Source of the DNA: Paenibacillus sp. MBLB1832 | GTDB taxonomy: Bacteria > Bacillota > Bacilli > Paenibacillales > NBRC-103111 | Reading direction: 5' to 3' | Assembly (NCBI RefSeq): GCF_032271945.1 | Contig: NZ_CP130319.1 | Coordinates: 1,135,001-1,199,000 of the forward strand | DNA: 64,000 nt | Shown here: one piece after another, positions 44,307 through 64,000 of the stretch | Layout: each line of letters starts with the position of its first letter | Position numbering within the stretch: the first letter of the stretch is position 1 | The notes under the pieces: generated by a model | Databases searched by the model: none | Told to the model about the DNA's origin: nothing | Seen by the model: the letters and a program-made list of their open reading frames with translations, nothing else | Program-made: the position numbers and the translations under genes

Positions 44307-44320
44307 CAACTTTGACTAGT

Positions 44321-44359
44321 CCTGATGTGGCTTAAAGCCTTGAAACATCGGGCTTTTTT
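44321..44359 (+). terminator. Terminator-like hairpin, copy 2
   Basis: CCTGATGT/ACATCGGG (one G-T pair) followed by TTTTTT; paralogue of 41778-41816. Confidence 0.72.
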
Positions 44360-44381
44360 GTGTTATAAGAGTGGAAAATTC

Positions 44382-44565: not shown

Positions 44566-44654
44566 TCAACCTGATCCTTCAGCATTTCGTGTATTGACAT
44601 TTTTAGGCCTTATTTTTGACAAGATTTCATTTTAAATAAACGCAGGTGAAACCA

Positions 44655-44700
44655 TTGACAAAAGAAAACCAAGTCCTTACGATTAGTTTGACAAACTAAT
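44655..44700 (+). promoter_or_regulatory. marR promoter and operator
   Basis: TTGACA (44655-44660), 17 bases, TACGAT (44678-44683). A perfect inverted repeat with 9-base arms, ATTAGTTTG-A-CAAACTAAT (44682-44700), overlaps the -10 box. A related site lies before the next gene. Position and symmetry fit MarR autorepression. Confidence 0.75.
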
Positions 44701-44743
44701 GATTGAATGAGAGTTTAAGACAAGCTCTGGACGGAGGATAACA

Positions 44744-45172: not shown

Positions 45173-45190
45173 CCGTTCATTTGCAGAATT

Positions 45191-45210
45191 GTAAGTTAGA
45201 CTAACTAATT
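45191..45210 (+). promoter_or_regulatory. Second MarR operator-like site
   Basis: AAGTTAG-A-CTAACTAA, the same centre and right arm pattern as the palindrome at 44682-44700, between marR and the kinase gene. Confidence 0.6.
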
Positions 45211-45240
45211 GGCGGAGCGACTGACAGCAGGAGGAGAAAA

Positions 45241-47085: not shown

Positions 47086-48676
47086 CGATATTCGAAGCGT
47101 TCTGGATGTGGTAGCCAAAAAAATAGATTGGAGGGCACACGGCATTGAGGTTGTCGGAACCGCGTTGGACGGAGAAGAAGGCTTACAACTGATTGAAGCT
47201 TTTCGGCCGGAGCTGGTCTTAACGGATATTCGTATGCCGAAGCAAGATGGCTTGGAGCTGACGCGTCAAGTCCTTGCGCATTCTCCCGGAAGCAAGGTGA
47301 TTATCATGAGCGCCTACACCGATTTTTCTTATGCGCAGCAAGCCATTCGGCTGGGTGCGTTTGATTTTATAAAGAAACCCTTTGCGATTGAAGAAGTACT
47401 AGCTGGTGTACTCAAGGCCAAGCAAGCATGGCTGGACCAGAATCAAGCGTTGCTTCAACAGAAAGAGATGGAAGTTAAGCTCAAAGAAAGCTTGCCGATC
47501 CTCCAACAGGAGTATATGGCGCTGCTGATCCATTATCGAACCGATGAAAGCAACGCCATGCAGCGTTGGAAATTCCTTGAAATTGACCTTGAACCGAAGC
47601 GTTTAACCGTGCTAGTCGTGGAAATCGATCATTTTGTCGATAAATACCAGGCGATGCCGGCTCAGGAGATTGAGCTTGTTCGATTTGCTCTTCAGAACAT
47701 TATGGAAGAAACGATACTTTTCTACACCCGCGGGTTCATTTTTCGTGAGTCATTGAACCGTTTCGTCTGTATTCTTCAGGATGAAGAGGGACTTAACGTA
47801 ACGGGGCTTGCGGAGGCTTGCTGTGTGAATATTGAGACCTACACGAGATTTACGATTAGTGTGGGCATCAGTTGCACGGCCGCTAGTGTCATGGATCTTC
47901 CTGAAGCGTACCAGCAGGCGATGCGAGCGTTGACCTTCCATTTCTATACAGGCGGTAATGGGGCCTTTCATTACAGCACGCTTGCCGAATCCGCCAAAGG
48001 CGGTAATCGCTACGCCTCGGGCAAGGATGAGGACTTTGTGTTCGCATTCCGGTCCGGGAATAAACAGAAAACGCTGGAGCTGCTGGAGGAAATGCTGCAG
48101 GCGTTGTTAGCTCACGACCCTCTGCCAGAGCCGGAATATGCCGCTTCGGTATGCAAGGAGCTATGCTCCAAGCTGATCCGTATTCTGCTCGAGAAATTGA
48201 ATTATGAGCGAATTGGGGGGCTGGATGCCCAAGTGAAGGCTCTCAGCAAAGAAGACAGAAACTCGTTGTCCGAGTACAGGCAATTGTTGAAGGATATCAT
48301 TGAACAAGGATGCAGAATGATTATGGAAGAGCGGACCGATGAATCCAAGGCAATCATTTACCGTTCGATGTTGTATATTAAAGAGCATCTAAGCGAAGAG
48401 CTGTCCCTCGAACATTGCGCGAAACAAGTTAATCTAAGTTGGGGATATTTTTCCAATCTATTCAAGAAGGTTGCGGGTGTAACGTTTCAGCAATTCGTAC
48501 TGACCGAAAGAATGGAAAGAGCGAAGGTGATGATGCTGGAAAACTATCAGATTCAAGAGATCGCGGCAGAGCTCGGCTATGAGCATCGGCGGTATTTTAG
48601 CGAAGTATTCAAGAAATATACAGGAATGACACCTTCTGAGTTTAAAGATTCATATAAACCTTCGTCTAACCTGTAA
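47063..48676 (+). CDS. YesN-type response regulator, AraC family
   Basis: 537 residues from ATG 47063 (GAGGG six bases before). Receiver domain with Asp8/Asp9, phosphoacceptor Asp55 (LTDIRMPK), Ser83 and Lys105. Long connector, then a C-terminal AraC double helix-turn-helix (LEHCAKQVNLSWGYFSNLFK and the second motif near EVFKKYTGMTP). The most likely binder of the shared motif found before the solute-binding gene (48689) and the GH28-like gene (61259). Confidence 0.93.
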   Translation: MMKLVVIDDIRSVLDVVAKKIDWRAHGIEVVGTALDGEEGLQLIEAFRPELVLTDIRMPKQDGLELTRQVLAHSPGSKVIIMSAYTDFSYAQQAIRLGAFDFIKKPFAIEEVLAGVLKAKQAWLDQNQALLQQKEMEVKLKESLPILQQEYMALLIHYRTDESNAMQRWKFLEIDLEPKRLTVLVVEIDHFVDKYQAMPAQEIELVRFALQNIMEETILFYTRGFIFRESLNRFVCILQDEEGLNVTGLAEACCVNIETYTRFTISVGISCTAASVMDLPEAYQQAMRALTFHFYTGGNGAFHYSTLAESAKGGNRYASGKDEDFVFAFRSGNKQKTLELLEEMLQALLAHDPLPEPEYAASVCKELCSKLIRILLEKLNYERIGGLDAQVKALSKEDRNSLSEYRQLLKDIIEQGCRMIMEERTDESKAIIYRSMLYIKEHLSEELSLEHCAKQVNLSWGYFSNLFKKVAGVTFQQFVLTERMERAKVMMLENYQIQEIAAELGYEHRRYFSEVFKKYTGMTPSEFKDSYKPSSNL

Positions 48677-48688
48677 GTTCGGGCAAGT

Positions 48689-48754
48689 TGTCGAGAAATC
48701 TGCCCTCGCTGTCGAATCTACCGCATTATGTAACGACTCATAGTGTTCTATACT
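48689..48754 (+). promoter_or_regulatory. Shared-motif promoter of the sugar importer operon
   Basis: A conserved block TGTCGA..A.TCTGCCC (48689-48705), GAA at 48714-48716 and CCGCATTATGTA (48721-48732), then 16 bases and TATACT (48749-48754). It matches 61259-61324 without gaps over 50 positions (about 36 identical), including the same distance to the -10 box. Confidence 0.72.
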
Positions 48755-48798
48755 CAAGTTGTAAGATAAAGCGTTGCTAACAAAGGGAGGCAGATTAG

Positions 48799-50178
48799 AT
48801 GATCAAGAAAATTGCGGTTGGAACCATTTCTATGGCATTGGTGTTAAGTTTAGCGGCATGCGGCAGTAACGCAGGCGATAAAGCAAAGCCATCCGAGAGC
48901 AGTAGCAGTACACCGGCACCAGCTCCAACGAAGTTAGTGTATTGGACTGGCGACCGTCACGACAGCGACTATATCAAGTCGGTCATTGAAAAGTATAATT
49001 CCACGAACAAAGATGGCATTACCGTAGAATATGTAGTGAAAGGTGACGACTACAACCAGGCCCTCGACATCGCTTTCGCTTCCGGTCAAGCACCTGATGT
49101 GTTTCGGGCGAAGGAAAATACGGCGCAAAATTTCTACAAAAAAGGGTATATGGCCCCTCTGGACAGCTACCTGACTGACGATCTAAAGAAAAGCTTCCCG
49201 GCGATGGAAGACCTTAATCGCTTCGATGGTAAGATGTACAGCTTGCCGAATTATGGCTCGACGATGCGGTTAGTGTACAATCAAGACCTCTTCGCGAAAG
49301 CGGGAATCACCAATCCGCCGACTACGTTGAAAGAGCTTGTAGAAGATGCCAAGAAAATTACGGCAGTTGGAAAAGCGGATGGCGCCTATGGTTTTGCACT
49401 AAACTTCAAAAATCCGGGAAGCGCCTTTGATCGTTCCGGCCGCGTAATTGCGGAGGCCAGCGGCTTTGGAGGCTTCGGCTACAATTTTAAGACGGGGAAA
49501 TTTGATTTTACCGGTTTCAAGGATATTGTGCAGGCGTTCAAACAGATGAAGGATGACGGCAGCACATTGCCAGGCATGGAATCCTTGGACATCGACCCGT
49601 TACGCGCCCAGTTCGCAGAAGGAAAAATCGGCATGTACATCTCGTATTCCTCGGAACCTGGGGTGTATAAAACCCAATTCCCTGCCAAGATCAAGTGGGC
49701 AGCTGCGCCTGTGCCGACGATAGACGGTACGGTGAAAGGTGCAACCGGCTTCTTGGGGGGCCCTTGGCTCTCGATCAGCTCCAGCACGAAAAACAAAGAT
49801 CAAGCCTGGAAATTCTTGAAATATATGTACACGGAAGAAGTCCTTCAAACGTACCATGAAAAAGGCTTCGGCATCTCGATGGTACCGTCCGTCATTGCCA
49901 AAGCAAAGAAACCGGATATTAATGGCATCGACGGATTCCTGCCAAATAAGTATGACGGTGTTTGGCCGATTCAGCCGACTGTCAATGTGCAAGGGATTAA
50001 ATACCAGGACGCATTCCTGAAGTATATGCTCGAAGGCGGCGACTTCAATAAAGTCGTAGATGACCTGAACAAGCGATATAATGAAGCGCTGGACAAGGCA
50101 GTTGCCGCAGGCGAAGTGAAGGCAAAGGTCATTCCGGACTTTGACCCTGCGAAGCTTGCTGGAACGTTTGCGAAATAA
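48799..50178 (+). CDS. Sugar ABC transporter solute-binding lipoprotein
   Basis: 459 residues. A signal peptide with lipobox LSLAAC is followed by a Ser/Pro/Ala tether and a family-1 sugar-binding fold (VYWTGDRHDSDYIKS start; RLVYNQDLFAKAGITNPPTT, typical of this class). GGGAGG precedes the ATG. First gene of an operon with two permeases and a GH130 enzyme, so the ligand is probably an oligosaccharide released by the secreted enzymes downstream. Confidence 0.94.
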   Translation: MIKKIAVGTISMALVLSLAACGSNAGDKAKPSESSSSTPAPAPTKLVYWTGDRHDSDYIKSVIEKYNSTNKDGITVEYVVKGDDYNQALDIAFASGQAPDVFRAKENTAQNFYKKGYMAPLDSYLTDDLKKSFPAMEDLNRFDGKMYSLPNYGSTMRLVYNQDLFAKAGITNPPTTLKELVEDAKKITAVGKADGAYGFALNFKNPGSAFDRSGRVIAEASGFGGFGYNFKTGKFDFTGFKDIVQAFKQMKDDGSTLPGMESLDIDPLRAQFAEGKIGMYISYSSEPGVYKTQFPAKIKWAAAPVPTIDGTVKGATGFLGGPWLSISSSTKNKDQAWKFLKYMYTEEVLQTYHEKGFGISMVPSVIAKAKKPDINGIDGFLPNKYDGVWPIQPTVNVQGIKYQDAFLKYMLEGGDFNKVVDDLNKRYNEALDKAVAAGEVKAKVIPDFDPAKLAGTFAK

Positions 50179-50253
50179 TAACGGCACAAGGAGGGTATGG
50201 AGAGGTGTGTGCTCCGTACCCTTTGTACTGCCACACAGAGGAGTGGACTTGGG

Positions 50254-51153
50254 ATGAGAACCATGTACAGAAAGCATTTTGCATACAGCTTCATTGCTCC
50301 AAGCCTCATTCTCACGCTAGTGCTCGGCGTATATCCAATTGGATGGGCTATTCGCTATATGTTTTACGACTATAAAGGCTATGGGCAAGAGCGATTTATT
50401 GGGTTGGAAAACTTTACTCAGTTAGCTCATGACTCTCAATTCTGGGAGTCAGTATTCAACACGTTTGTTTATGCAGGGGGCAAGTTGCTTCTTACGCTTC
50501 CCTTGGCGTTGATTTTGGCCGTCATCCTGAATACCAAATTGCGGGGAAGGCAACTGCTCAGGGGTATTTTCTTCATGCCGACCATTATTAGTTCGGCGGT
50601 CATCGCCGTCGTATTTTTTACCATCTTCAATTCGTACAATGGTATCCTGAATCAATTTCTTTTAAAGTATGGTGTAATCTCGCAAAAGGTCGATTGGCTA
50701 GGACCGGATCATGCCATGCTGACAACGATTATTGTCGCCGCCTGGGGCGCTGTCGGCAATTACATGCTTTTGTTTCTTGCAGGTTTGCAGAATATTCCTG
50801 TTGATATGTACGAAAGCTCCTCTTTGGACGGAGCGAATAAACGACAACAATTCTGGTACATTACCCTTCCGATGCTGGGACCCGTCCTGCAAATGGTCAT
50901 TATGCTGGCGATTATTACCTCGCTGAAGGGCTATGAGAGCATTATGGTCCTTACAGAAGGGGGGCCGGTCGGGAAGACCGAGGTGATGTATTTGTATGTA
51001 TACAAACTCTTTTTCCCTGTTTCAACGGCTTCAACTGTACTCGACCAGCAGTTTGGATACGGCAGTGCGGTGGGATTCGTTACCGCGTTAATTGTGGGCG
51101 CAGTTACGCTGGTGTACACGCTGATGTCCCGAAAATTAAATCGCATGTATTGA
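50254..51153 (+). CDS. Sugar ABC transporter permease (UgpA/MalF type)
   Basis: 299 residues from ATG 50254 (GAGGAG about ten bases before). Six predicted membrane segments and the ATPase-docking loop MYESSSLDGANKRQQFWYIT, a slightly divergent EAA motif. Pairs with the next permease. Confidence 0.93.
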   Translation: MRTMYRKHFAYSFIAPSLILTLVLGVYPIGWAIRYMFYDYKGYGQERFIGLENFTQLAHDSQFWESVFNTFVYAGGKLLLTLPLALILAVILNTKLRGRQLLRGIFFMPTIISSAVIAVVFFTIFNSYNGILNQFLLKYGVISQKVDWLGPDHAMLTTIIVAAWGAVGNYMLLFLAGLQNIPVDMYESSSLDGANKRQQFWYITLPMLGPVLQMVIMLAIITSLKGYESIMVLTEGGPVGKTEVMYLYVYKLFFPVSTASTVLDQQFGYGSAVGFVTALIVGAVTLVYTLMSRKLNRMY

Positions 51154-51170
51154 GTGAGGAGGGAGCAGCT

Positions 51171-52001
51171 ATGTACGCATTTATTCAGCGTTCTGCATTA
51201 TGGATATTTCTCCTGGTGGTCGCGATCGTTACCGTCTTTCCGGTTGCTATGGCTTTACTAGGGTCGTTCAAGACGAATGCCGAGATTGTCGGCGGGGCTA
51301 GCCTTCTTCCGCAGCATTGGATTGGAAGCAACTATGCGGATGCCTGGAAGCAAGCCCACTTCTCCACGTTTTCCTGGAACAGTTTATTTGTCAGCACCGC
51401 CACAACCATAGGCACTTTAATTGTGACAGCAGCAGCAGCCTACGCCGTAGATCGGTTTGAATTCGCAGGCAAAAAGCTGTACGTTGGGCTGCAGGCTGCA
51501 ACCATGTTTATTGCCATTGGGGCTGTCGTACTCCGTCCCCAATTCCAATTGATGGTGAAGCTTCATCTGCATACGTCGCTATGGGGCGTTATTCTGATCC
51601 TGATTAGCGCGCATGCATCGATTTTTTTCATTCTGCTCAGCTTTATGAATGGCATTCCGAAGGAATTGGATCAAGCTGCGCTAATGGACGGGTGTAATCC
51701 GTTTACAACTTTTTGGCGAATTATTTTGCCTCTCCTTGGTCCCGGGCTTGGTGTCGGGGCGTTATTCACCTTTCGTGCAGCCTGGAATGAATATTTGCTG
51801 CCTTTCGTCTTTACGATGAACAGCCCCAAATTGCAAACGTTAACGGTAGGGCTTGCCGGGCTGCGTTATGGTGCTACCGCTGCCGCCCAAACGAATTTAA
51901 TTATGGCCGGGGCATGCTTGTCGATTCTTCCACTTCTATTGGTATACGTGCTTGCCAACCGCTCATTCATGCAGATGACGGCAGGGTCCTTGAAAGGTTA
52001 G
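51171..52001 (+). CDS. Sugar ABC transporter permease (UgpE/MalG type)
   Basis: 276 residues from ATG 51171, preceded by GAGGAGGGAG. Six predicted membrane segments; docking loop ELDQAALMDGCNPFTTFWRI. The ATPase is not encoded here and is presumably a shared MsmX-type protein. Confidence 0.93.
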   Translation: MYAFIQRSALWIFLLVVAIVTVFPVAMALLGSFKTNAEIVGGASLLPQHWIGSNYADAWKQAHFSTFSWNSLFVSTATTIGTLIVTAAAAYAVDRFEFAGKKLYVGLQAATMFIAIGAVVLRPQFQLMVKLHLHTSLWGVILILISAHASIFFILLSFMNGIPKELDQAALMDGCNPFTTFWRIILPLLGPGLGVGALFTFRAAWNEYLLPFVFTMNSPKLQTLTVGLAGLRYGATAAAQTNLIMAGACLSILPLLLVYVLANRSFMQMTAGSLKG

Positions 52002-52034
52002 TTTCATCCTTATTTCTAATTAGGAGGCTTATTC

Positions 52035-53045
52035 GTGTCTACTCCACTCATTGGTAAACTTCAATCCAGTACCGTTATTCAGAGGTACCCGAGTAATCCT
52101 GTGTTACAAGCAAGCGACGTTCCTTACGCCCCCGCGCTCGTATTTAATGCCGGGGTGGCCAAATACCAAGGCCGTTACGTCATGGTGTTCCGCAACGATT
52201 ATGGCAATCCCGCTACGCATACGCTTGAACCGAGCTCGACGACAAATCTAGGGATCGCGTTCAGCAGCGATGGTATTCATTGGGACGTTCAGAACCGTCC
52301 GTGCTTCGGTCTCAATGATGAAGAGATTATTCGTACCTACGACCCGAGGTTGACGGTGATCGATGGCCGTTGCTATATGTGCTTCGCCGTTGACACACGT
52401 CACGGACTTCGCGGAGGCATTGCCGTTACCGAGGATTTCGAACATTTTGAAGTCCTGCATTTAACCGTTCCGGATAATCGGAATATGGTACTCTTTCCTG
52501 AAAAAATTGGCGGGCATTATGTTCGTCTGGAGCGTCCGTTCCCTGTTTATAGTCGCGGAGGCCTTGACCGCTTTGACATCTGGTTATCCGAATCCCCGGA
52601 TCTGAGGTATTGGGGGAATTCCGATCTGGTGCTTGGTGTGGAGCATGTTCCCTACGCGAATGATAAAATCGGTCCTGCCGCTCCTCCGATCAAGACAGAA
52701 AAGGGATGGTTGACGACGATTCATGCCGTTGATCTGGACCCGTCCCGCGGTAAGAACGGATGGGAGGATTCCTGGCGCAAAAGATATACGGCTGGCTTGA
52801 TGCTGCTGGATCTGGATAATCCCAAAAAGGTCGTCGGTCTGTATCGTGAGCCTCTGATTGCACCCGAAGCGAGTTATGAAACAAGCGGAGGCTTCCGCAA
52901 CGATGTCATTTTCCCAGGTGGCATGATCCTTGAAGATAACGGTGAAGTCAAAATATATTACGGTGCTGCCGATACGGTAGAGTGTCTGGCCACCGCCCAT
53001 GTGGATGACCTTGTGAAGCTGTGCCTCGAAGGCGGAAGCCTCTAG
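52035..53045 (+). CDS. GH130-family glycoside phosphorylase/hydrolase
   Basis: 336 residues, no signal peptide. Five-bladed beta-propeller family with the characteristic start NPVL, then ALVFNAGVAKYQGRYVMVFR, TYDPRLTVIDGRCYM, GPAAPPIKTEKGWL and YYGAADT. GH130 enzymes phosphorolyse or hydrolyse beta-mannosides (mannosyl-glucose, beta-1,2- or beta-1,4-mannobiose). GTG start with AGGAGG upstream. Cytoplasmic and in the importer operon, so it should process the imported oligosaccharide. Confidence 0.9.
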   Translation: MSTPLIGKLQSSTVIQRYPSNPVLQASDVPYAPALVFNAGVAKYQGRYVMVFRNDYGNPATHTLEPSSTTNLGIAFSSDGIHWDVQNRPCFGLNDEEIIRTYDPRLTVIDGRCYMCFAVDTRHGLRGGIAVTEDFEHFEVLHLTVPDNRNMVLFPEKIGGHYVRLERPFPVYSRGGLDRFDIWLSESPDLRYWGNSDLVLGVEHVPYANDKIGPAAPPIKTEKGWLTTIHAVDLDPSRGKNGWEDSWRKRYTAGLMLLDLDNPKKVVGLYREPLIAPEASYETSGGFRNDVIFPGGMILEDNGEVKIYYGAADTVECLATAHVDDLVKLCLEGGSL

Positions 53046-53053
53046 AACGAATG

Positions 53054-53221
53054 AAACCAAATCCCGATGCGATGTTGCATGCTGGGATTTGGTTTTTTTA
53101 TGGACAGGCTGATTTGGATACATGTTTTTCGAATTTGTTTATAGATATTTGGCGCTCACAGCTTCTAGAATGAGGAGGCATTGAATCCCAGCGCAAAGGA
53201 GGCTTAGACGCAAGTTCATCA
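53054..53221 (+). repeat. 168-bp direct repeat, copy A (with terminator)
   Basis: About 93 percent identical by eye to 55461-55629, same orientation, 2.4 kb apart. It starts with a strong terminator, AAACCAAATCCC/GGGATTTGGTTT plus a T run, and continues through GGCGCTCACAGCTTCTAG and two AGGAGG-like boxes. The two copies bracket the fucosidase gene pair. Confidence 0.92.
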
Positions 53222-53248
53222 TAAAGATGGAGCTAGGAGGGAAATATC

Positions 53249-54577
53249 ATGCATAAGCAACGTTCAGATGATGTGTATGAGCAGAGACTAGAGAGAATCA
53301 AGTGGTTCCGTGATGCTCGCTTCGGTATGTTTATCCACTGGGGGTTATACGCTATTCCTGCAAGGGGGGAATGGGTCCGTTCGATGGAAAGGATGAGCAT
53401 AGAGGACTATCAGACGTATTTCGACGAATTTGATCCACTCCGATATCAGCCTAGGGTATGGGCTCAGCTGGCCAAGGAGGCGGGGATGAAATATGCGGTA
53501 TTAACGGCCAAGCACCATGATGGCTTTTGCTTATTTGACAGCCAGTACACCGAGTACAAAGCAACAAACACACCAGCGAAGCGGGATCTGGTGAGAGAAT
53601 TCGTCGAAGCCTTCCGTGAGGAGGGGCTCAAGGTGGGGCTGTATTACTCCCTGCTCGACTGGCATCACCCAGACTACCCTGCCTATGGAGACAGGCAGCA
53701 CCCGATGAGGGATCATCCTGATTATCGGGAGGTACAGCATGAGTTTCCTCGATATGTCGACTATATGCATGCCCAGGTCGAGGAGCTGCTCTCGGGCTAC
53801 GGTAGGATCGATATCATGTGGTTCGACTTCTCCTATCCAGGCTTCTCTGGGGAAGCATGGCGCGCAACGGAGCTCGTGAACAAGGTTCGGGCGCTGCAGC
53901 CGCATATTCTGATCGATAATCGTTTGGGTGGAGATATGCATGCAGAGCATCCTGTGGCGTATGCTGGAGACTTCGCGGGGCCGGAGCAGGGAGTCCCTCG
54001 GCATCCTGTGACTGATGAGCTGGCGCGCCGACTTCCATGGGAGTCCTGCATTACGCTGAATAATAGCTGGGGTTATCACGCACAGGATTGGAGATACAAG
54101 ACAGCACAAGATGTCATTAGAACGTTAGTAAATTGTGTGAGCAAGAACGGCAATTTGCTAGTGAACGTCAGCCCAACCGCCAAGGGAGAGATTCCCCAGA
54201 AGGCCCAGTCCATTCTGAGAGAGGTAGGCGAATGGCTCCTGAGGAATGGGGAGAGCATCTATGGCTGCGGAGAGGCGGTAGATCAGCCCAAGCCGGAGTG
54301 GGGACGGTATACGCAGCGTGAACATATTCTCTATGCCCACCTGATGGAACAGGTGATAGGCCATGTGAGTCTCGAGGGTTTAAGAGGCAAAATAAAGAAG
54401 GCAAGGGTACTTGCGGACGGCTCGGAGGTTGTCATCACTCCTTTCTGGAATGTGGCGGTAGATTCGTTTGATGGGCCAGATGATATCTTTATGAACTTTG
54501 GTTACCCTGCGCAGGAAACCTATCCGCTCCCCGACCCGAGAGATACGGTCATCGCGCTGGAGCTCAAGCAGGTGTAA
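53249..54577 (+). CDS. GH29-family alpha-L-fucosidase
   Basis: 442 residues, no signal peptide, so cytoplasmic. The GH29 N-terminus is KWFRDARFGMFIHWGLYAIP, then YAVLTAKHHDGFCLFDS, and the catalytic nucleophile region IDIMWFDFSYPGF with its Asp. The C-terminal beta domain is short. It removes alpha-linked fucose from oligosaccharides. AGGAGGG precedes the ATG. It directly abuts the next gene (no gap). Confidence 0.93.
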   Translation: MHKQRSDDVYEQRLERIKWFRDARFGMFIHWGLYAIPARGEWVRSMERMSIEDYQTYFDEFDPLRYQPRVWAQLAKEAGMKYAVLTAKHHDGFCLFDSQYTEYKATNTPAKRDLVREFVEAFREEGLKVGLYYSLLDWHHPDYPAYGDRQHPMRDHPDYREVQHEFPRYVDYMHAQVEELLSGYGRIDIMWFDFSYPGFSGEAWRATELVNKVRALQPHILIDNRLGGDMHAEHPVAYAGDFAGPEQGVPRHPVTDELARRLPWESCITLNNSWGYHAQDWRYKTAQDVIRTLVNCVSKNGNLLVNVSPTAKGEIPQKAQSILREVGEWLLRNGESIYGCGEAVDQPKPEWGRYTQREHILYAHLMEQVIGHVSLEGLRGKIKKARVLADGSEVVITPFWNVAVDSFDGPDDIFMNFGYPAQETYPLPDPRDTVIALELKQV

Positions 54578-55456
54578 ATGGTGATCTTGTTAAAAAACGA
54601 GGAGCTAGAGGTTAGATATGAGCCCCCCTCCCACAAATGTCTAACGTCGCGATTCGACCGTACAGGGTTCATTACGCAAGTAACGGATGTGAGGAGGGGG
54701 CACACCTACTGCTCTGCTGAGCATCAGGGGCAGGGTAACGCACGTAGGGGAGGGGTCGGACTGTGTAATGAATTCAGCATCCACCGTGCGGTCGGGTATG
54801 AGACGGCCCAGGTCGGTCAGCCGTTTCCTAAGCTGGGAGTTGGACTAGTAACGAGAGCTCATGAGCGGGAATATATGTTCCATGAACCCTATGTCGTCCA
54901 GCCTTTCCCCATCAGCTGGGATGCATCGGAGGATCGCATCGAGGTGAGTGTGGAGCCTCTCCCTTGCAGAGGGTACGAGGCGCGGCTCCACAAGCGTATC
55001 GTGCTGAGAGGCAGACAGCTCTGTATTGACTATACGCTACAGAATGCAGGGACGATGGCGATCATCACCGAGGAATATGCCCACAATTTCCTGCGAATGG
55101 CAGGGAGAGAGATCGGACCGGATTATGAGGTAGTGATCCCTGATCTGGTAGGGGCTGGCTCTGTTGGAGGTCCCTTCGTAAGCTCAGGGCGAACCCTGAA
55201 CTGGAGTCAGCCGATGCGAGAGGGAGAGGAATGTTATCTCTCCCGTCCCATCGAAGCTTCGGGGGCAACCTCGGCTGCATGGGAGCTCCATGTGCGCCAG
55301 CTGGGAATCGGTTTGATGGAGGAGGTCAGCGGCGCAGCGGTGTCTCATTTTGCCCTGTGGGGCAAGGCGCATGTCATAAGCCCGGAGCTTTTCATCTCGA
55401 TCCAGCTAGAACCGGGGCAAGTGATGAATTGGCAGAGAGTGTATAGCTTTTATTGA
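54578..55456 (+). CDS. Galactose-mutarotase-fold (aldose epimerase-like) hypothetical protein
   Basis: 292 residues of mostly beta-sandwich sequence. ITEEYAHNFLRM and the strand-rich pattern with RIEVSVEPLPCRGYEARLHKR resemble the aldose 1-epimerase-like superfamily, but a standard catalytic His/Glu set could not be assigned. Its ATG follows the fucosidase stop with no gap. It may act on fucose or the fucosidase product anomers; this is inference from coupling only. Confidence 0.72.
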   Translation: MVILLKNEELEVRYEPPSHKCLTSRFDRTGFITQVTDVRRGHTYCSAEHQGQGNARRGGVGLCNEFSIHRAVGYETAQVGQPFPKLGVGLVTRAHEREYMFHEPYVVQPFPISWDASEDRIEVSVEPLPCRGYEARLHKRIVLRGRQLCIDYTLQNAGTMAIITEEYAHNFLRMAGREIGPDYEVVIPDLVGAGSVGGPFVSSGRTLNWSQPMREGEECYLSRPIEASGATSAAWELHVRQLGIGLMEEVSGAAVSHFALWGKAHVISPELFISIQLEPGQVMNWQRVYSFY

Positions 55457-55460
55457 AAGA

Positions 55461-55629
55461 AAACCAAATCCCGATGCGATGTTGCATGCTGGGATTTGGT
55501 TTTTTTCATGAACAAGCCGATTTGGATAAACGTTTTTCGATTTTGTTTATAGATAATTGGCGCTCACAGCTTCTAGAATGAGGAGGCATTGGATCCCAGG
55601 GCAAAGGAGGCTCAGACGCAAGTTCATCA
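55461..55629 (+). repeat. 169-bp direct repeat, copy B (with terminator)
   Basis: Second copy of the 53054-53221 sequence, including an identical terminator stem. It ends 41 bases before the start of the large secreted protein gene, so its distal half is that gene's leader. Confidence 0.92.
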
Positions 55630-55669
55630 AGACGAATGCGGAATGTCCAAATAGAGAGGAGAGTCCTGA

Positions 55670-58600
55670 ATGGAAGGGAAAGCAATGAGAAGCAAGCTGC
55701 ACTGGATCGTCTTGGGAAGCATCCTACTGATCACGACGGTGTTAGGACTGATGATTCCCGGCACGGGAACGACAGCATTAGCTGCAAGCAGCGCCCAGGT
55801 TATACCGCCGAATGCGGGATATGTGAATGTGAAAGACTTCGGAGCGATGGGTGACGGGGTGGCCGATGATACCGCAGCCATTATGAGCGCGATTAAATCG
55901 CGCAATCGGTATTACGGTTATCCGATGAATGTATATTTCCCCGCAGGCGTTTATCTGGTCAGCGACACGATCAATGGCGTTAATCCCGATGGTACGGATA
56001 ACGCGCATTTGACCTTGCAAGGCGCCGGCCAGGGCCAAACGATAATTAGGCTGAAAAATAACGCGCCGGGCTTTAATGCAGGGGCTGTTACTGCCAAGCC
56101 TGTTGTCCGTTTCGCAGGGGAAAGCGGTATTCAGAATCAGGCCTTCATGAACTTCCTCTTTGATTTGACCGTTGATATCGGCTCGCAGAACCCTCAGGCA
56201 ATCGGCGTCGATTATTTAACGAGCAACCAGGGCAGTATGCGAAATGTCGATATTGTCTCCGGCGATGGGCAAGGCTACATTGGACTTGCCATGACGCGGG
56301 AGATCGGACCGGGCATGGTCAAGAATATCTCCATTACCGGTTTTCAGTATGGCATCAAAACAGCCAAGCCCCTCTACAGTATGGTGCTGGAGAAGGTGAC
56401 GCTGAAAAATCAATCGGTAGCCGGCATTCTAAACGAGCGGCAAATGTTGGAGATTCGCAACTTGACGAGCACGAACAAGGTGCCGGCCATCATTAACCGC
56501 TACAATGATGCCATGGTGACGATCATCGATAGCCAATTTTTCGGCGGGATCAAAGGGGAAAGTGCGATTCGCAACGAAAGCGGCGGCTCTTTGCTAGCGC
56601 GCAATTTGAACGCACAATCGTCGTATTATTCTCAGGCGATCACGAATGAAGGCGTAGCTGTATCCGGAAAGATCGTAACCGAATACAACTCCGATTACTT
56701 GCAGCGCTTATTTCAATCACGGTCGACGACGCTCAATCTGCCGATTGAGGAGACCCCGGAATTGCCACAGGATCCGCTCTCGGACTGGGCGTTCGTAGAC
56801 GATTACGGTGCGAATCCAGACGATAATATCGATGATACCGCCGCTATTCAGGCTGCGATTGATTCGGGCAAGACGACAATCTACTTCCGCCCGCGGCATA
56901 CGACTACGTATACTTACCAGATTCAAGGGACCCTTGTCATCAGGGGGAATGTGAAGCGGCTCGCGGGAATGGGCACCTATATCAAGAAGACGAATGCCAC
57001 CTCGTTGCCACAAATTCGCATTGAGACGACCAATTATCCCAATGTGTTTATCGATCGGCTATTTGGCGACTTTCAGGTGACTCATGTGGGGGCGACCCAT
57101 GTGGTATCGCTGGATAACCAGTGGAATGATTATCACAATGAGCCGGGCAGCGGTGACTTATATTTGGAGGATACGTACTCATCCTTCGTGTTTAATGGCA
57201 ATAAAGCCTGGATGCGCCAAGCCAATTCCGAAAGCAAGACGAACACACAGCTCGTCAACCAAGGAGGAACGGTATGGGTGCTCGGTCTCAAGACGGAGTG
57301 GATGAATACGACCGCGCGTACGACCGGCGGAGGCAAATCGGAGATTATGGGCGCTTTTATGTATCCGGCCCAAGGTAACGTGGCGCCAACCACGCCGGCC
57401 TTTGAAACGATTGATTCGCAAGCCTCTTATCAATATGGTGTGTTTGATGATTGGGTTCAGCAATGGACATTGTTATTCCGAGAAACCCGGAATGGTGAAA
57501 CCCGCGACATGCTGGCCGATGATCTTGTGGAAAAGAGAACAGGCCGGGGCACGAAGGTCAATCTCTATACGGCCATTCCAGAACCGCTTGCTGATGTGAC
57601 GCCTCCGTCGACGCCGAAGCTGTCGCTCAAGTGGAATTCGCTGAATGCGGCTGATCTTTACTGGGTGGGGTCCACCGATGACGTGCATATCAACGGCTAC
57701 ATGCTTTATCGGGATGGCTACCGGGTAGCGGATACGAAGAAGCGGGAAATCATCGATACCCATCTGGACGCGACGCTGCCCTATACGTATACCGTCTTCG
57801 GCTACGATGATATGTTCAACTTGTCGGCGCCCAGCAATGCGATCTCCAACAAAGTTGGCTGGGGCAGCGAGGATATTGGAACCGTTACGAAGGCGGGTTA
57901 CACGGAATATGCGGATAATAGCTTTCATGTTTATGGTGCCGGCAGCGACATCGGCGGTACGGCGGATAGCTTTCATTATACGTATACCCCGCTATACGGC
58001 GATGGAAGTCTCGTATTTAAGCTGGTGAACCAATCGAAGACAAGTCAGGAGGCCCAGGAAGGTATCATGATTCGGGATACACTGGCACCGGATGCGAAGT
58101 TTGCCGGATTGTTCCGCAAACCGTGGGGGCCGATGCAAACCGTTACCCGCAATGAAACGGGGGGCACGGCATCGGTGACGTCATTGCCGGGCAGCCAGGT
58201 GCTTCCGTTCTGGATGAAGCTGACTCGCAGCGGCAATACAGTTACGGTGTATAAGTCGACCGATGGCGTCCACTGGGGAGCGCCGATTCAAACCTTTACA
58301 CTTGCTTTGGACTTCCGTGCGTATGTAGGCCTGGCCATTGCTTCGGATTTTGACGGCATTACGGAAGAGGCACGTGTGTCAAACGTGAACGTGGAAACAC
58401 CAAGCCAATATCTGAATTTGGCCTTGAAGAAGCCGGCCTCCCAAGCAGGTACGTCGAACGACGCCGCAGCGAAGCGGGCCGTTGACGGCAATACGAACGG
58501 GAAGCTTGCGAGCGGCTCTGTCACCCAGACGCTTGCCGATCATCAGGCATGGTGGCAGGTTGATTTTCAGGAGACTGGCTATATTCGATCAGTGGATATT

Positions 58601-61189
58601 TACAATCGGACGGATAGTGGCAGCGACGTGCTGAAAAATTACTACGTGTTCGTATCCGATACGCCATTCTCTTCGGAAGATCCCAACGTTCTGGTCAACC
58701 AGCCAGGAGTGTGGTCAAGCTTGCAGACCGCTCAGGCGGGTTCCCCGACATCGCTGAAGGTAGACCATCAGGGTCGCTATTTGCGCATACAGCTGCAGGG
58801 GGATGGGAAGCTGACACTTGCGGAAGTCGTCGCTATGGGATATGGAAGCATCATCGTGGATGTTGAACCACCGACAGCGCCGTCCGGTTTGTCTGTCGTT
58901 ACGAAGAGCGAGACGACCGCCACGATTGGCTGGTTGCCAGCTACGGACAACCGTGGCGTGACAAGCTATCTCATCTATCGAGACGGAGCATTAGTCGGCA
59001 CGGTCAGCGGCAGCGTGTACAGCTTTACCGATACAGGACTAAATCCAGGCGACGAGGTTAATTACGCCATTATAGCCCAAGATGTATACGAGAATGTATC
59101 GCCAACCAGCGCTGTGTTAAAGGTCATCGTTCCCGTCAACATCGCTAAAAATAAGACAGCCAAAATGAGCAGCACGCAAAGCGGGAGACAAGCATTTTGG
59201 GCCGTAGACGGGATTTCGGACGGCAGCCAAAGCGCTAGCTCCATCAGTCAAACCCTCAGTGAAAATGAGGCATGGTGGGAAGTAGATCTCGGGGCCGTGC
59301 GCCAGATTGATCGGATCCAATTGTTTGCGCCAACGGATTGTTGTCAGACGGATCTAAGTAATTACTATGTGTTTGTATCCGATACGCCGTTTACGGTGAA
59401 CAGCGTCACCTACACGCTCAATCAGCCTAACGTGTGGAGCAAGCTCCAAGTTGGGGCCCTATCCTCATCTCCCGCAGATGTCCAGGTCGGACATGCAGGA
59501 AGATATGTGCGCATTCAGCTGACCAGTTCATCCGCTTCTCTTGGCCTGGCGGAAGTCAGGGTGATCGGAGAACTGCCGCTGGTCAACGCTGCATTAAACA
59601 AGGCAGCGACGCAGAGCAGCACCTCCTACAACGCCTATGCCAGCAAGGCCGTAGACGGCAACAGTGACGGCAACTGGAACGCAGGATCGGTATCGCATAC
59701 TAGCACGGAGACGAATGCGTGGTGGCAGGTCGATCTTGGTTCTGTGCAAGACATTCACGATATTCAAATTTATAATCGAACGGATTGCTGCGGTGCACGG
59801 TTAAGCTCCTATTATGTGTTCGTTTCCAATGCTCCTTTCGGATCTACCAACGTAGCTTCGACACTTGCCGATCCTAACGTATGGAACAGTTTCCAAAGCG
59901 AGCAGGCGGGAAGCCCAACGAAAATCAGGGTCGGCAGAACCGGGCGTTACGTCCGCATACAGCTTAATCAAACAAACCCGCTTGCCATTGCCGAAGTCAA
60001 GGTTATGAAATTAGATGACATTATTGTCCTGGACACGGAAGCGCCTACGGCTCCGAGCGGACTGAACGTTGTCGGCAAGACCGAAACATCCGCCACGATC
60101 AGCTGGTCGCCTTCCACGGACAACCGCGGTGTTACCGGTTACGATATTTATCGGGATAATACATTACTGGGCACCGTTGCGGGGAATGTCAATGTATTTA
60201 CAGCTACGGGACTTACAGCGGGCGACAGCTACAGCTACACAGTGAAAGCGAAGGATGCTAGTCTGAACGTGTCAGCCGCAAGCAGTGCACTCCAAGTCAC
60301 GCAGCTGATCAATATGGCGAAGAACAAACCCGCTACGATGAGCAGCACGCAAAATGGTGCGTCCGCCTCCCGGGCTGTCGACGGTAATACAGACGGCAAC
60401 CTGGCGAGCGGCTCAGTTAGCCAATCGCTTGGCGAGAAAGAAGCTTGGTGGCAGGTCGATCTGGGAGCTGTACGCAATATTGACCGCATTCAAATTTTTG
60501 GGCGGACGGACTGCTGCACAACGGATCTTAGCCAGTACTATGTGTTTGTATCCGATACGCCATTCACCGTTACAGGCGTTACGTATACGCTGAGCCAACC
60601 AGGCGTATGGAGCCAGTTTCAGTCTGCAGCGGCAGGGTTGCCAACCGAAGTGCAGGTTGGTCGAACAGGACGGTATGTTCGCATTCAGCTGACAGGCCAG
60701 TCAAGTTCCTTGAGTCTGGCGGAGGTGAAAGTTCTAGGCACCTTGCAGCAAGTCAATGTGGCGCTGAATAAACCAGCTACACAGAGCAGCACCTCTTACA
60801 ACGCTTATGCCAGCAGGGCAGTAGATGGCAACAGCGATGGTAACTGGAATGCAGGATCGGTATCCCATACCAGCACGGAGGCCAACGCGTGGTGGCAAGT
60901 CGATCTTGGTTCCGTGCAGGACATCCATAACATTCAGGTTTTCAATCGAACGGATTGTTGCGGAGCCAGGCTGAGCGAATACTATGTGTTTGTCTCGGAT
61001 ACGCCGTTCTCCACCACAGACTTGAATGCGACGCTGAGCAATGCGAATGTCTGGAACAGCTTCCAAAGCGGGCAAGCTGGCAGTCCGACGAAGATTTTGG
61101 TAGGCCGAACCGGACGCTACATCAGGATACAACTTAAGAATACAAACCCGCTGGCCATTGCCGAAGTGAAAGTCATGGCTTTGCAATAG
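55670..61189 (+). CDS. Giant secreted pectate-lyase-fold protein with FN3 and F5/8C modules
   Basis: 1839 residues. Signal peptide about 1-39 (cleaved near ALAAS). Two right-handed beta-helix (Pectate_lyase_3) domains: about 51-355, starting VNVKDFGAMGDGVADDTAAI, and about 372-640, starting FVDDYGANPDDNIDDTAAI. Then FN3 (about 645-727), a concanavalin/DUF1349-like domain (about 731-910), F5/8C (919-1059), FN3 (1066-1151), two F5/8C (1154-1447), FN3 (1455-1545), and two more F5/8C (1546-1839). The last FN3 and F5/8C units repeat with a 390-residue period. It has no S-layer anchor. Probably a secreted plant-polymer-active enzyme with multiple glycan-binding modules; activity unknown. Confidence 0.9.
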   Translation: MEGKAMRSKLHWIVLGSILLITTVLGLMIPGTGTTALAASSAQVIPPNAGYVNVKDFGAMGDGVADDTAAIMSAIKSRNRYYGYPMNVYFPAGVYLVSDTINGVNPDGTDNAHLTLQGAGQGQTIIRLKNNAPGFNAGAVTAKPVVRFAGESGIQNQAFMNFLFDLTVDIGSQNPQAIGVDYLTSNQGSMRNVDIVSGDGQGYIGLAMTREIGPGMVKNISITGFQYGIKTAKPLYSMVLEKVTLKNQSVAGILNERQMLEIRNLTSTNKVPAIINRYNDAMVTIIDSQFFGGIKGESAIRNESGGSLLARNLNAQSSYYSQAITNEGVAVSGKIVTEYNSDYLQRLFQSRSTTLNLPIEETPELPQDPLSDWAFVDDYGANPDDNIDDTAAIQAAIDSGKTTIYFRPRHTTTYTYQIQGTLVIRGNVKRLAGMGTYIKKTNATSLPQIRIETTNYPNVFIDRLFGDFQVTHVGATHVVSLDNQWNDYHNEPGSGDLYLEDTYSSFVFNGNKAWMRQANSESKTNTQLVNQGGTVWVLGLKTEWMNTTARTTGGGKSEIMGAFMYPAQGNVAPTTPAFETIDSQASYQYGVFDDWVQQWTLLFRETRNGETRDMLADDLVEKRTGRGTKVNLYTAIPEPLADVTPPSTPKLSLKWNSLNAADLYWVGSTDDVHINGYMLYRDGYRVADTKKREIIDTHLDATLPYTYTVFGYDDMFNLSAPSNAISNKVGWGSEDIGTVTKAGYTEYADNSFHVYGAGSDIGGTADSFHYTYTPLYGDGSLVFKLVNQSKTSQEAQEGIMIRDTLAPDAKFAGLFRKPWGPMQTVTRNETGGTASVTSLPGSQVLPFWMKLTRSGNTVTVYKSTDGVHWGAPIQTFTLALDFRAYVGLAIASDFDGITEEARVSNVNVETPSQYLNLALKKPASQAGTSNDAAAKRAVDGNTNGKLASGSVTQTLADHQAWWQVDFQETGYIRSVDIYNRTDSGSDVLKNYYVFVSDTPFSSEDPNVLVNQPGVWSSLQTAQAGSPTSLKVDHQGRYLRIQLQGDGKLTLAEVVAMGYGSIIVDVEPPTAPSGLSVVTKSETTATIGWLPATDNRGVTSYLIYRDGALVGTVSGSVYSFTDTGLNPGDEVNYAIIAQDVYENVSPTSAVLKVIVPVNIAKNKTAKMSSTQSGRQAFWAVDGISDGSQSASSISQTLSENEAWWEVDLGAVRQIDRIQLFAPTDCCQTDLSNYYVFVSDTPFTVNSVTYTLNQPNVWSKLQVGALSSSPADVQVGHAGRYVRIQLTSSSASLGLAEVRVIGELPLVNAALNKAATQSSTSYNAYASKAVDGNSDGNWNAGSVSHTSTETNAWWQVDLGSVQDIHDIQIYNRTDCCGARLSSYYVFVSNAPFGSTNVASTLADPNVWNSFQSEQAGSPTKIRVGRTGRYVRIQLNQTNPLAIAEVKVMKLDDIIVLDTEAPTAPSGLNVVGKTETSATISWSPSTDNRGVTGYDIYRDNTLLGTVAGNVNVFTATGLTAGDSYSYTVKAKDASLNVSAASSALQVTQLINMAKNKPATMSSTQNGASASRAVDGNTDGNLASGSVSQSLGEKEAWWQVDLGAVRNIDRIQIFGRTDCCTTDLSQYYVFVSDTPFTVTGVTYTLSQPGVWSQFQSAAAGLPTEVQVGRTGRYVRIQLTGQSSSLSLAEVKVLGTLQQVNVALNKPATQSSTSYNAYASRAVDGNSDGNWNAGSVSHTSTEANAWWQVDLGSVQDIHNIQVFNRTDCCGARLSEYYVFVSDTPFSTTDLNATLSNANVWNSFQSGQAGSPTKILVGRTGRYIRIQLKNTNPLAIAEVKVMALQ

Positions 61190-61204
61190 CCGTGTGGAAT
61201 AAGG

Positions 61205-61240
61205 AGATAGGGCAGACTGAAGCTGCCCTATCTCTTTTTG
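61205..61240 (+). terminator. Terminator after the giant protein gene
   Basis: AGATAGGGCAG (61205-61215) pairs CTGCCCTATCT (61223-61233), followed by CTTTTTG. Confidence 0.93.
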
Positions 61241-61258
61241 TATCGAGATGACAAAGGA

Positions 61259-61324
61259 TGTCGAAAATTCTGCCCATCATCTTGAACTTGCCGCATTATG
61301 TATGGATTCAAACTGCGGTAAACT
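61259..61324 (+). promoter_or_regulatory. Shared-motif promoter of the GH28-like gene
   Basis: TGTCGAAAATTCTGCCC, GAA at 61284-61286, CCGCATTATGTA (61291-61302), 16 bases, then TAAACT (61319-61324). Gap-free match to 48689-48754. Confidence 0.72.
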
Positions 61325-61368
61325 TTCCTTGTACGATCAACTTTTACAAGCGGATATGGAGGGAAATT

Positions 61369-63744
61369 ATGAACCAGATTCTTTTTAGAAAGCGCTTTAT
61401 CGGATTTGCATTTATTTTGGGTTTCCTATGTCTCACAATACTCTTATCAGATGGCAAAGCCTTCGCAGCAACGACGATCTATGACAAATTCAATGCGGAC
61501 GTAACCGGGGGGACCCCTTCCGGATGGACGACCGACACGAGCGGAGGAACGGTGCAAGTCAGTGAGGTGCCTTTTCCGACCGATAAAAGCGTAGCCATCA
61601 CCAAAACGGCGACAACCAATGCCGCTACGATAACCAAGACGTTCACGCCCATTACCGGCCGTGCGATTATTGAATATCGCGTTGTCGTTACGGACAATAT
61701 GGCCGGCAACAAGATGGCCCCTTACATTTACGATGAAAATGGAAATCCCATTGTCAAGATTGAATTAAGAAGCGACTTCGTAAGAGCCTACAACGGGGCG
61801 GCCAACTACGCGGTGTCGGGAATTACACTGAATGAGTGGACGATCATCAAGGTCGTTCTCGATACCAATACGAAAAAATACGACCTCTTTATAGACGGTA
61901 TCAAACGTGTGACCGACTATTCGTTCTCGACCACGACAGGTACAAGCGCCGCCTCACTGAAGTTCAGTGTACCTTCGGGCCAAACCGGGGTCATGAACAT
62001 TGATGAAGTGCGCATCTACGATTATGAATCGCTGGTGACACCTCCATCAGGTACGATCATTAATATTACATCCGCGCCTTATAATGCGGTTGGCGACGGT
62101 GTGACTGACAATACGTACGCTATTCGCCAAGCGATTGCTGATGTGCCTGCAGGCGGAACGGTGTATGTACCCTCTGGTAAATTTGTAACCGGCGGCCTGG
62201 ATTTAAAAAGCAACATGACCTTGTATGTTGATTTGAAGGGAACGCTTCTTGCAAAACCGGACGAGAGCGCTTTCCCCGACCACGACGAGACGATTGAGAA
62301 CTGGTTGTCCGGCGCGATGAGACGAGCCTTCATTTATATTGGAGGAGCAACGAACGTACGATTAGATGGGGGCGGTACAATCGACGGCAATGCCGGCAAT
62401 GTCGCCAACTGGCATAGCGGTGCATCGTACGATATTAAGATTCGTCCCAACTTGATTAAAATTTATAACTCGGATACGGTTTCCGTGAAGAACCTGTACT
62501 TGAAAGATGCCCCGGCGTGGCTGCTCTTCCCGTTGGAATCCAACAATATTACGATCAAGGATATTGTCATTTACTCCATCATGTCGGGCAACAAAGATGG
62601 GATCGATCCGTCCAACTGCTCGAATGTACTGATCGAGAACTCGCAAATCTACACCGAAGATGACGCGATCGTACCAAAATCGGGAAGCGCGCGTTTTAAC
62701 GATAACGTCACGGTACGCAATATTTTCATCAATGGCTCGACGGCTGCCAACGCCTTAAAGCTTGGAACGAACAGCTATGGGCAATTCAAGAATTACTTGT
62801 TTGAGGATGTATATATCAAAAGAGCGCAAATCGGCGGCATTTCGTTAGCTCTCGTCGATGGCGTCGTTACGGATAACATCACGTTCCGGCGGATTAACAT
62901 GAGCAAGGTGCAAGGCGCACTGTTCATCCAGGCGGGATACCGTGGACAAAAGCCGGCCAGCGCGCCTGTTATTACAAGCGATATCAAGAACATTTCTTTC
63001 GAAGATATTAAAGCTAGGAATCTGACCTCCACCATTGGTTCAGGCTTCCTCGGCAATATAACGTCCACGATCAACTTCCGATTGAGTAATCTGAGCTTCA
63101 AAAATATTGACATCCAATATCCGGGCGGCCTTTCGACGGTGCCTGCTTCGCCAGCAGAGTATGACGGAACATATCCGGAGCTGAGCAAATACGGAAATCT
63201 GCCGGCGTATGGGTTTTATTTGCGGCATGTCGATGGAATCACGCTGGACAATGTCAATATAAGCGCAGCGAGTACAGATGCTCGTCAGCCTATCGTGATG
63301 GAAGATGTGTCTAAGGTCAACGTTTATAATGAAGCGGAGAACGGTTCAATTAACGGTGAAATGCAAGTTGTGAATGATAGTACTGCGTCCGGCGGAAAGT
63401 ACATTGTGACTCCGAATCCGAGTGGCTTCAATCTGGGCAATGCGTACTCCGATCTGACCTTCCAGGTGTATCATTCGGGGACCTACTATCTCTGGGGAAA
63501 AACGAAAGCTCCAACGCAAGAAGATAATTCCTTCTTCATCAAAGTAGGTTCTAATCCGGAAGCAACATGGCATATGAACCCGTCCACTTCCTGGACCTGG
63601 AATAAAGTGACGGATAATGTGAATCCGTACAGCTTCTCGCTCACTCCGGGAACATATACGATACGAGTAAGAGATCGGGAAGACGGCACGCCTATTGATA
63701 AACTGCTGTTGACGAGTGATTCGGCATACATTCCGGCCAATTAA
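61369..63744 (+). CDS. Secreted GH28-like (polygalacturonase-fold) protein
   Basis: 791 residues from ATG 61369 (GGAGGGAAATT upstream). Signal peptide about 1-33 (near KAFAA), an N-terminal laminin-G/concanavalin-like domain (about 35-220), and a beta-helix region starting YNAVGDGVTDNTYAIRQAI. GH28-type motifs NKDGIDPSNCSNV (about residue 408) and TEDDAIVPKSG (about 430) are present. The His-Gly and Arg-Ile-Lys motifs of classical polygalacturonases are not found. The C-terminal 130 residues (from EAENGSING) resemble a carbohydrate-binding beta-sandwich of the CBM6/35 type. Confidence 0.88.
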   Translation: MNQILFRKRFIGFAFILGFLCLTILLSDGKAFAATTIYDKFNADVTGGTPSGWTTDTSGGTVQVSEVPFPTDKSVAITKTATTNAATITKTFTPITGRAIIEYRVVVTDNMAGNKMAPYIYDENGNPIVKIELRSDFVRAYNGAANYAVSGITLNEWTIIKVVLDTNTKKYDLFIDGIKRVTDYSFSTTTGTSAASLKFSVPSGQTGVMNIDEVRIYDYESLVTPPSGTIINITSAPYNAVGDGVTDNTYAIRQAIADVPAGGTVYVPSGKFVTGGLDLKSNMTLYVDLKGTLLAKPDESAFPDHDETIENWLSGAMRRAFIYIGGATNVRLDGGGTIDGNAGNVANWHSGASYDIKIRPNLIKIYNSDTVSVKNLYLKDAPAWLLFPLESNNITIKDIVIYSIMSGNKDGIDPSNCSNVLIENSQIYTEDDAIVPKSGSARFNDNVTVRNIFINGSTAANALKLGTNSYGQFKNYLFEDVYIKRAQIGGISLALVDGVVTDNITFRRINMSKVQGALFIQAGYRGQKPASAPVITSDIKNISFEDIKARNLTSTIGSGFLGNITSTINFRLSNLSFKNIDIQYPGGLSTVPASPAEYDGTYPELSKYGNLPAYGFYLRHVDGITLDNVNISAASTDARQPIVMEDVSKVNVYNEAENGSINGEMQVVNDSTASGGKYIVTPNPSGFNLGNAYSDLTFQVYHSGTYYLWGKTKAPTQEDNSFFIKVGSNPEATWHMNPSTSWTWNKVTDNVNPYSFSLTPGTYTIRVRDREDGTPIDKLLLTSDSAYIPAN

Positions 63745-63932
63745 AAGGCAAAAGCAAGACGGAGGCCTTCCAGGTGAGGGTCTCTTTCTTGATTTTGCTG
63801 CCCCATTTTCTGAATTGTATATCGTGGCGGTATCCAATCAGATTTATAATGAAGACGCTTTCCAATTGGAGAAAGAGAGGAGAAGCCGGGTAAGGATAAC
63901 GTTTTGAAAATACGTTGAAAGAGGTGTATGCA

Positions 63933-64000
63933 ATGAGGATTTTCAGCTCCACAACTATCCGTATCGGCATTGCCTGCGTACTGGTTGTTCGATGTGTACT
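63933..64000 (+). CDS. Start of a further gene, probably secreted (partial)
   Basis: ATG 63933 with AGAGGTG ten bases before opens a frame MRIFSSTTIRIGIACVLVV that runs off the window. A basic start followed by a hydrophobic stretch suggests a signal peptide. A TATAAT at 63845-63850 could be its -10 box. The product cannot be identified. Confidence 0.55.
   Translation, partial: MRIFSSTTIRIGIACVLVVRCV

Follow-up and report, generated by a model that had tools for sequence, protein, structure and literature searches.

The window, by which we mean the whole 64-kb stretch of DNA that was analysed, carries a yesMN pair followed by an importer operon and, further downstream, by genes of secreted proteins (Table 1). 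The product of the gene at 47063 matches Response_reg (9.6e-25) and HTH_18 (4.1e-21) in Pfam, and a His_kinase gene overlaps it upstream; on its domains and this neighbouring kinase, it is classified as an AraC/XylS-family two-component response regulator of the YesN type. The earlier note had described an AraC-type regulator at this place, which holds, and the description is corrected here to a two-component response regulator combining REC with an AraC-type helix-turn-helix (HTH). The gene upstream of yesM is marR, and the window yesM has no copy of the operator described below. Similar TTAG/CTAA palindromes, read by eye, precede both the MarR-family gene and yesM, and a shortened Mutator-family transposase gene (42407-42916) lies upstream in the yesM/marR stretch (42407-45240).

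Table 1. Features of the yesMN-importer locus and of its two candidate operators
Feature	Position	Strand	Remark
YesM-type sensor histidine kinase	45241..47085	+	HAMP, His_kinase, HATPase_c; dCache_1 below cut-off
YesN-type response regulator, proposed activator	47063..48676	+	REC, GGDEF_2, AraC HTH
YesN recognition helices	in 47063 product		SWGYFSNLFKK and YEHRRYFSEVFKK
Block TGTCGA	48689 / 61259	same strand
Block TCTGCCC	48699 / 61269	same strand
Blocks GAA, then CCGCATTATGTA	CCGCATTATGTA at 48721-48732 / 61291-61302	same strand
Upstream half-site TGTCGAGAAATCTGCCC, importer operon operator	48689..48705	+
Downstream half-site TGTCGAATCTACCGCAT, importer operon	48710..48726	+	21 bp from first; reaches -35 position
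Conserved CATTAT, importer site	48724-48729	+
-10 box TATACT, importer promoter	48749..48754	+	49 bases after first base of CTGCCC
Solute-binding lipoprotein, importer	48799..50178	+	first gene past site 1
Importer permease 1	50197..51153	+
Importer permease 2	51150..52001	+
GH130-type enzyme	52035..53045	+	presumed last operon gene
Terminator-like hairpin after GH130-type gene	53054-53099		read by eye
Very large secreted lyase-like protein	55670-61189
Upstream half-site TGTCGAAAATTCTGCCC, GH28 gene operator	61259..61275	+
Downstream half-site TCTTGAACTTGCCGCAT, GH28 gene	61280..61296	+
Conserved CATTAT, GH28 site	61294-61299	+
-10 box TAAACT, GH28 promoter	61319..61324	+	spacing as at importer promoter
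Secreted GH28 enzyme, polygalacturonase / rhamnogalacturonidase-like	61369..63744	+	target of site 2

The cluster also holds a GH29-type fucosidase-like gene and an uncharacterised gene (54578-55456, 292 aa) for which Pfam and NCBIfam gave no match. The very large lyase-like protein has several F5/8C domains and shares an N-terminal rhamnogalacturonase/epimerase-like region with a second secreted protein of the same cluster (L033 1434-3617). The enzyme encoded at 61369 scores 105 bits against PF00295 (Pfam cut-off, 22.9) and is thereby placed in the GH28 family; its top scores are to rhamnogalacturonidases and polygalacturonases, all under the equivalog cut-offs, and among its six PDB relatives the top three are (exo)polygalacturonases. 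Our best guess for the substrate is a pectic, uronate-containing polymer, and the shared operator described below would point to pectic material as what the importer, otherwise without an assigned substrate, takes up. The cluster moreover contains a duplicated pair of terminator-like hairpin and promoter (53054-53221 and 55461-55629; 46 nt identical, then 134 nt at 90%), which precedes the fucosidase-like gene and the giant lyase-like gene and which a genome search found in these two copies only. The promoters of this pair (53166 and 55574) are ruled out as members of the regulon discussed here by their profile score, and they form a second promoter class within the same cluster.

The starting point for the regulon was the proposal, made in the earlier note, that the importer operon and the GH28-like gene share a gap-free 50-bp promoter motif. 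Comparison within the window bore this out: 48689-48738 and 61259-61308 are identical at 36 of 50 positions, without gaps and on the same strand, while the runner-up 50-mers of the window reach just 26 to 28 matches, and the chance of at least 36 matches between two random 50-mers is ~4e-12 to 2.5e-11. The -10 box, at exactly 16 bases after the last block in both promoters, was likewise found where it had been announced. Exact TGTCGA-N4-TCTGCCC occurs at two places in the own genome, both of them the window sites, and a longer pattern of the distal blocks (up to 3 mismatches, one gap off by a base) again returned the window sites only, each with 3 mismatches. When one site was compared with its own genome by BLAST, the partner was recovered at an E-value of only 0.11. 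Taken alone, the window pair is thus borderline on the genome-wide scale, suggestive rather than decisive, and the relatives decide.

When 29 further genomes of the genus were searched, 18 proved to have an ortholog of the importer, with solute-binding proteins 64-72% identical, and the operator lies upstream of the importer in 17 of these 18 (the exception is G009). From the 17 importer promoters of other genomes, using sequence only and leaving the window out, we built a narrow profile, R1. Over the 5.85-Mb own genome, the top match of R1 was the GH28 promoter (E = 0.0066), followed by the importer promoter (E = 0.022), the third match (E = 0.13) being a place elsewhere; these E-values are rough, and the ranking is clear. 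The element is therefore not a chance likeness according to this independent cross-genome ranking, the case from within the genome being suggestive. The search of the whole genome and of orthologous loci, which had been put forward as a check of the motif, thus came out in its favour.

Across the genus (30 genomes, counting the own), R1 gave matches at E ≤ 0.05 at 36 places in 20 genomes, that is, in 18 of the 19 genomes having an importer ortholog versus 2 of the 11 without one. Eighteen places precede the importer and six precede GH28 genes (the window's site is counted in each), eight precede yesM, one precedes a gene for a secreted CBM6 protein, and three have no recognised target (G014:C84, G021, and G010). 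A broad profile, R2, was then built from 15 of 32 sites; it includes both window sites, whose scores with R2 are accordingly no proof. At E ≤ 0.001, 32 of the 104 family genomes had R2 matches, 65 places altogether, of which 49 are in the window's genus, the source of all training sites, and 16 in other genera, which are independent of the training. The importer follows at 31 places (18 in the genus and 13 in other genera, at 64-74% identity) and yesM at 17, the window genome not being among the latter; nine of these kinases are 49-53% identical to the window's over the aligned parts, and both the importer and the yesM assignments were made by protein comparison. Thirteen places precede secreted, mostly GH28-type genes, with a Pfam GH28 domain in 11 of them, the two other targets being a CBM6 protein (G029) and an open reading frame (ORF) with F5/8C domains only (G005:C1). 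One place precedes a membrane-bound AraC regulator, and three (G010, G021, and G073:C2) have no recognised target. For the genera absent from R2 training, 15 of the 16 places lie before the importer (13), yesM (1), or a GH28 gene (1). Altogether, 62 of the 65 family places precede importer, yesM, secreted GH28-type, or regulator genes, and an occurrence before unrelated genes at random, which would have spoken against the motif, is not what the family genomes present. Two operator-like sites with no recognised target (L112, G010:C7; L111, G021:C23) lie in genomes having no close importer ortholog, and they are possible leftovers of gene loss.

Pooling four promoter classes gave the consensus TnTnGAAAAATCTGCCC-N4-TCTnGAnTTTACCnCATTAT, followed by 19 variable bases and then by the -10 box. 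The distance from the first base of CTGCCC to the start of the -10 box is exactly 49 bases in 32 of 32 first-collected sites, a set that drops 4 of the 12 regions read (L105, before yesM and with a 1-base deletion; L108 and L111, with no target; and L110, CBM6) and keeps L112 (G010), a site of the GH28 type that has no gene. Of the 15 first-collected sites outside R1 training, 12 had an R1 match that stopped short of the -10 columns. Three of the four sites set aside (L105, L108, and L110, not L111) have TATAAT at the standard spacing, and among 21 later sites a TAnnnT hexamer stands at the 49-base position in 18; the other three, all at GH28-type genes near the importer, have a -10 box about 1 base off or unclear (L186, G011:C73; L187, G016:C44; L188, G005:C1). 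Comparison of the window with its relatives gave 66-79% identity for the half-sites and 19-33% for the spacer. In the pooled profile, the self-similarity of the half-sites peaks at an offset of 21 bp (column permutation, p = 0.018), as it does for the two window sites (p = 0.004), both values being uncorrected for the offsets tried; taken singly, the importer, GH28, and yesM classes have their best offset at 17 or 19, not 21. The shape of the element resembles an AraC-type tandem of two 17-bp half-sites 21 bp apart, a repeat that has moderate support and is less firm than the rest of the evidence. The inner half-site falls at -35 and the distance to the -10 box is near constant, as is characteristic of class II activation.

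Which regulator would bind this element is suggested by its neighbours. Among the other site-bearing importer promoters whose upstream gene was read, yesN adjoins the element in 28 of 29, and in the exception (G056) yesMN lies ~7 kb upstream, behind a site of its own. The second recognition helix reads YEHRRY in all 30 site-linked YesN proteins (the window's, 17 of the genus, 11 of other genera, and that of G056). In G009, whose importer promoter lacks the element, the helix reads YEDRRYF, this contrast between site-bearing and siteless loci resting on that one ortholog. The window YesN and that of one relative are 49% identical with closely matching helices, and a pattern search with the regulator protein in named genomes gave 11 matches, of which none was confirmed. 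In the own genome, where 150 of 253 candidates were scored, there are at least 37 YesN-like matches, and the codon pattern for YEHRRYF occurs once. Because the sites are linked to yesMN and YEHRRY is constant, which is a correlation, the regulator of the element is most likely the YesN encoded at 47063, whose binding is predicted. The earlier suggestion of an activator-type site with fixed spacing, for which the AraC-type regulator at 47063 would be the likeliest binder, thus gains support from the recurrence of the element at yesN-importer loci, before yesM, and before GH28 genes.

Outside the window, the best third site found with R2 in the own genome (G000:C1:1204846-1204899, or L033 7347-7400; E = 4.9e-5 genome-wide) is found 5.8 kb beyond the end of the window. 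Its second half-site and its -10 spacing are preserved, its first half being weak, and it precedes the gene of a 773-aa membrane-bound AraC-type regulator (L033:7441-9759, starting ~5.9 kb past the window). Ahead of that gene come two permease-like genes and an ORF that has no Pfam match and that we interpret as a binding protein. The regulator gene may thus be under the control of YesN, or its product may itself bind a related site. Within the window, a weaker relative of the motif had been proposed at 63799-63850, and this candidate fell: by profile it ranks from 197th to 8906th of ~128,000 window positions (1320th with the profile of pooled relatives), and another search gave it 5.8 bits and E = 0.67 in a different register. 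An upstream half-site-like TCTTGA-N5-CTGCCC is present there, the downstream half is absent, and the TATAAT stands 2 bp closer than at the window sites. The plant-polymer regulon of the earlier note remains plausible from its GH28 member, its third member being replaced by the one outside the window.

The site before the membrane regulator gene raises the possibility that the binder is another AraC-type regulator, such as this one, acting also on its own gene. AraC-family regulators are often self-controlling, and the gene does have a site of its own at the above significance. We nevertheless consider this improbable, since in the relatives the sites are located within or close to yesMN-importer loci, some of them in front of yesM, and the YesN recognition helix is constant across genera whereas the helices of the membrane regulator differ.

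Still less probable is that the two window sites are alike through a promoter duplication in the own genome without shared regulation. The two copies do lie in one cluster, 12.6 kb apart, in which another promoter and terminator pair is clearly duplicated, and the spacer from operator to -10 box is 58% identical between them, above chance, so that common descent adds to their likeness. But what is best kept between the copies is the half-sites (identity 0.88 and 0.75, against 0.00 for the 4-base linker), and in the relatives the element stands before GH28 genes that are far off or on other contigs: in seven genomes of the genus (G003, G005, G011, G014, G024, G025, and G027), the GH28 target is on another contig or at least hundreds of kilobases from the importer. 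Over the aligned part, the one GH28 enzyme of a relative that was compared shares 25% identity with that of the window. A duplication could have been the route of the GH28 gene into the regulon, and it does not explain the conservation. Least credible of all is that the block, long and well conserved as it is, would be an RNA element (riboswitch or leader) or coding sequence and not a DNA operator, since it lies upstream of the -10 box in the 32 first-collected sites and is therefore not transcribed from that promoter, an Rfam search of 48600-64000 gave no family at gathering score, and the ORF start inside site 2 (61258) is upstream of the predicted promoter.

We therefore return to YesN, and we propose a model that starts from what was observed: a conserved element of characteristic spacing, which recurs in front of orthologous or matching genes and is linked to yesMN. 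The two 50-bp blocks are, with high probability as judged from sequence comparison, operators of the YesN-type response regulator whose gene (47063) lies directly upstream. We infer binding, control by phosphorylation, activation, and an inducer as follows. The YesM-type kinase (45241) would probably sense an oligosaccharide or polymer cue and phosphorylate YesN. A pair of DNA-binding domains of YesN would occupy, in tandem, 17-bp half-sites of about TnTnGAAAAATCTGCCC and TCTnGAnTTTACCnCAT, whose spacing of 21 bp corresponds to two helical turns. The downstream half-site would reach a weak -35 (TTATGT), and the distance to the -10 box is nearly invariant; with the inner half-site at -35 and this distance, YesN likely recruits RNA polymerase as class II activators of the AraC type do. 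The members of the regulon in the own genome would be the importer operon and the secreted GH28 enzyme, together with the membrane-bound AraC regulator of a second importer, which lies outside the window. A wider reading, to which we give about even credit, is that one YesN-type operator has persisted in at least five genera of the family while the genes under its control were exchanged, that its specificity can be read from the YEHRRY helix, and that YesN stands above the membrane AraC regulator in a two-tier cascade serving two importers. The exchanged targets are the GH130-type gene here, a heparinase-II/III-like lyase gene in the relative examined (G027), into which its importer operon runs on, and GH28 genes of differing architectures.

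At this one locus, the operator, the spacing rule, the likely regulator, and the targets can be read together, which can serve as a template for assigning, by recognition helix and promoter, the other YesN-like regulators of this genome, at least 37 in total. One system for comparison is a paralogous yesN-importer pair of the own genome (G000:C1:922562-925666), which has the same layout, with a regulator 42% and an importer protein 57% identical, and which differs in its promoter box (GTCGAAAGTTGTTTTGCCCTCC) and in its YesN helix (YEDRSYF). The paralogous importer family has a conserved promoter box of its own, TCGAAAGTTGATTTGYCCTTC-like (L053-L055, L058-L063, and G000:C1:924142-924272), and this box is probably the operator of the paralogous YesN.

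At araBAD of E. coli, the AraC sites I1-I2 are two direct 17-bp half-sites 21 bp apart, the inner one reaching -35. The element described here is like I1-I2 in its inner half-site at -35, in its fixed -10 spacing, and, with moderate support, in its putative tandem geometry; it is unlike it in sequence, in its regulator, which is two-component and not a sugar-binding AraC, and in that binding is predicted here. Among the matches listed, the open-licence literature contained neither a printed description of this operator nor a defined operator for YesN proteins of this group, and a term search of PMC7596534 and PMC5730181 gave no mention of YesM, YesN, YesS, or RhgR. According to passages of PMC3572039, XydS/XydR of Clostridium cellulolyticum is a system in which a kinase-adjacent AraC-type response regulator controls plant-wall enzyme genes; XydR has a second target locus, Ccel_1656, and the two regions share repeats as well as homology at the predicted -35 and further upstream. 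The same passages state that a consensus site for the family is not known and list the common features of the two regions, whereas the element here is defined in 32 genomes. For the pneumococcal YesN/TCS07, a comparative motif search alike to ours is reported in passages of PMC11034029, where YesN was without a clear repeat, only conserved AATTC and C/T stretches being given. According to PMC8579813, 3 of 5 AraC-type two-component systems of Caldicellulosiruptor bescii have mapped promoters that are preceded by predicted sites, built as tandem repeats with large spacers, and their regulators are taken as activators; genus and targets are other than here, and the likeness is one of site layout. 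As far as these passages go, AraC-type two-component activators with tandem sites are thus already known (PMC8579813 and PMC3572039), and the predicted YesN operator would join them.
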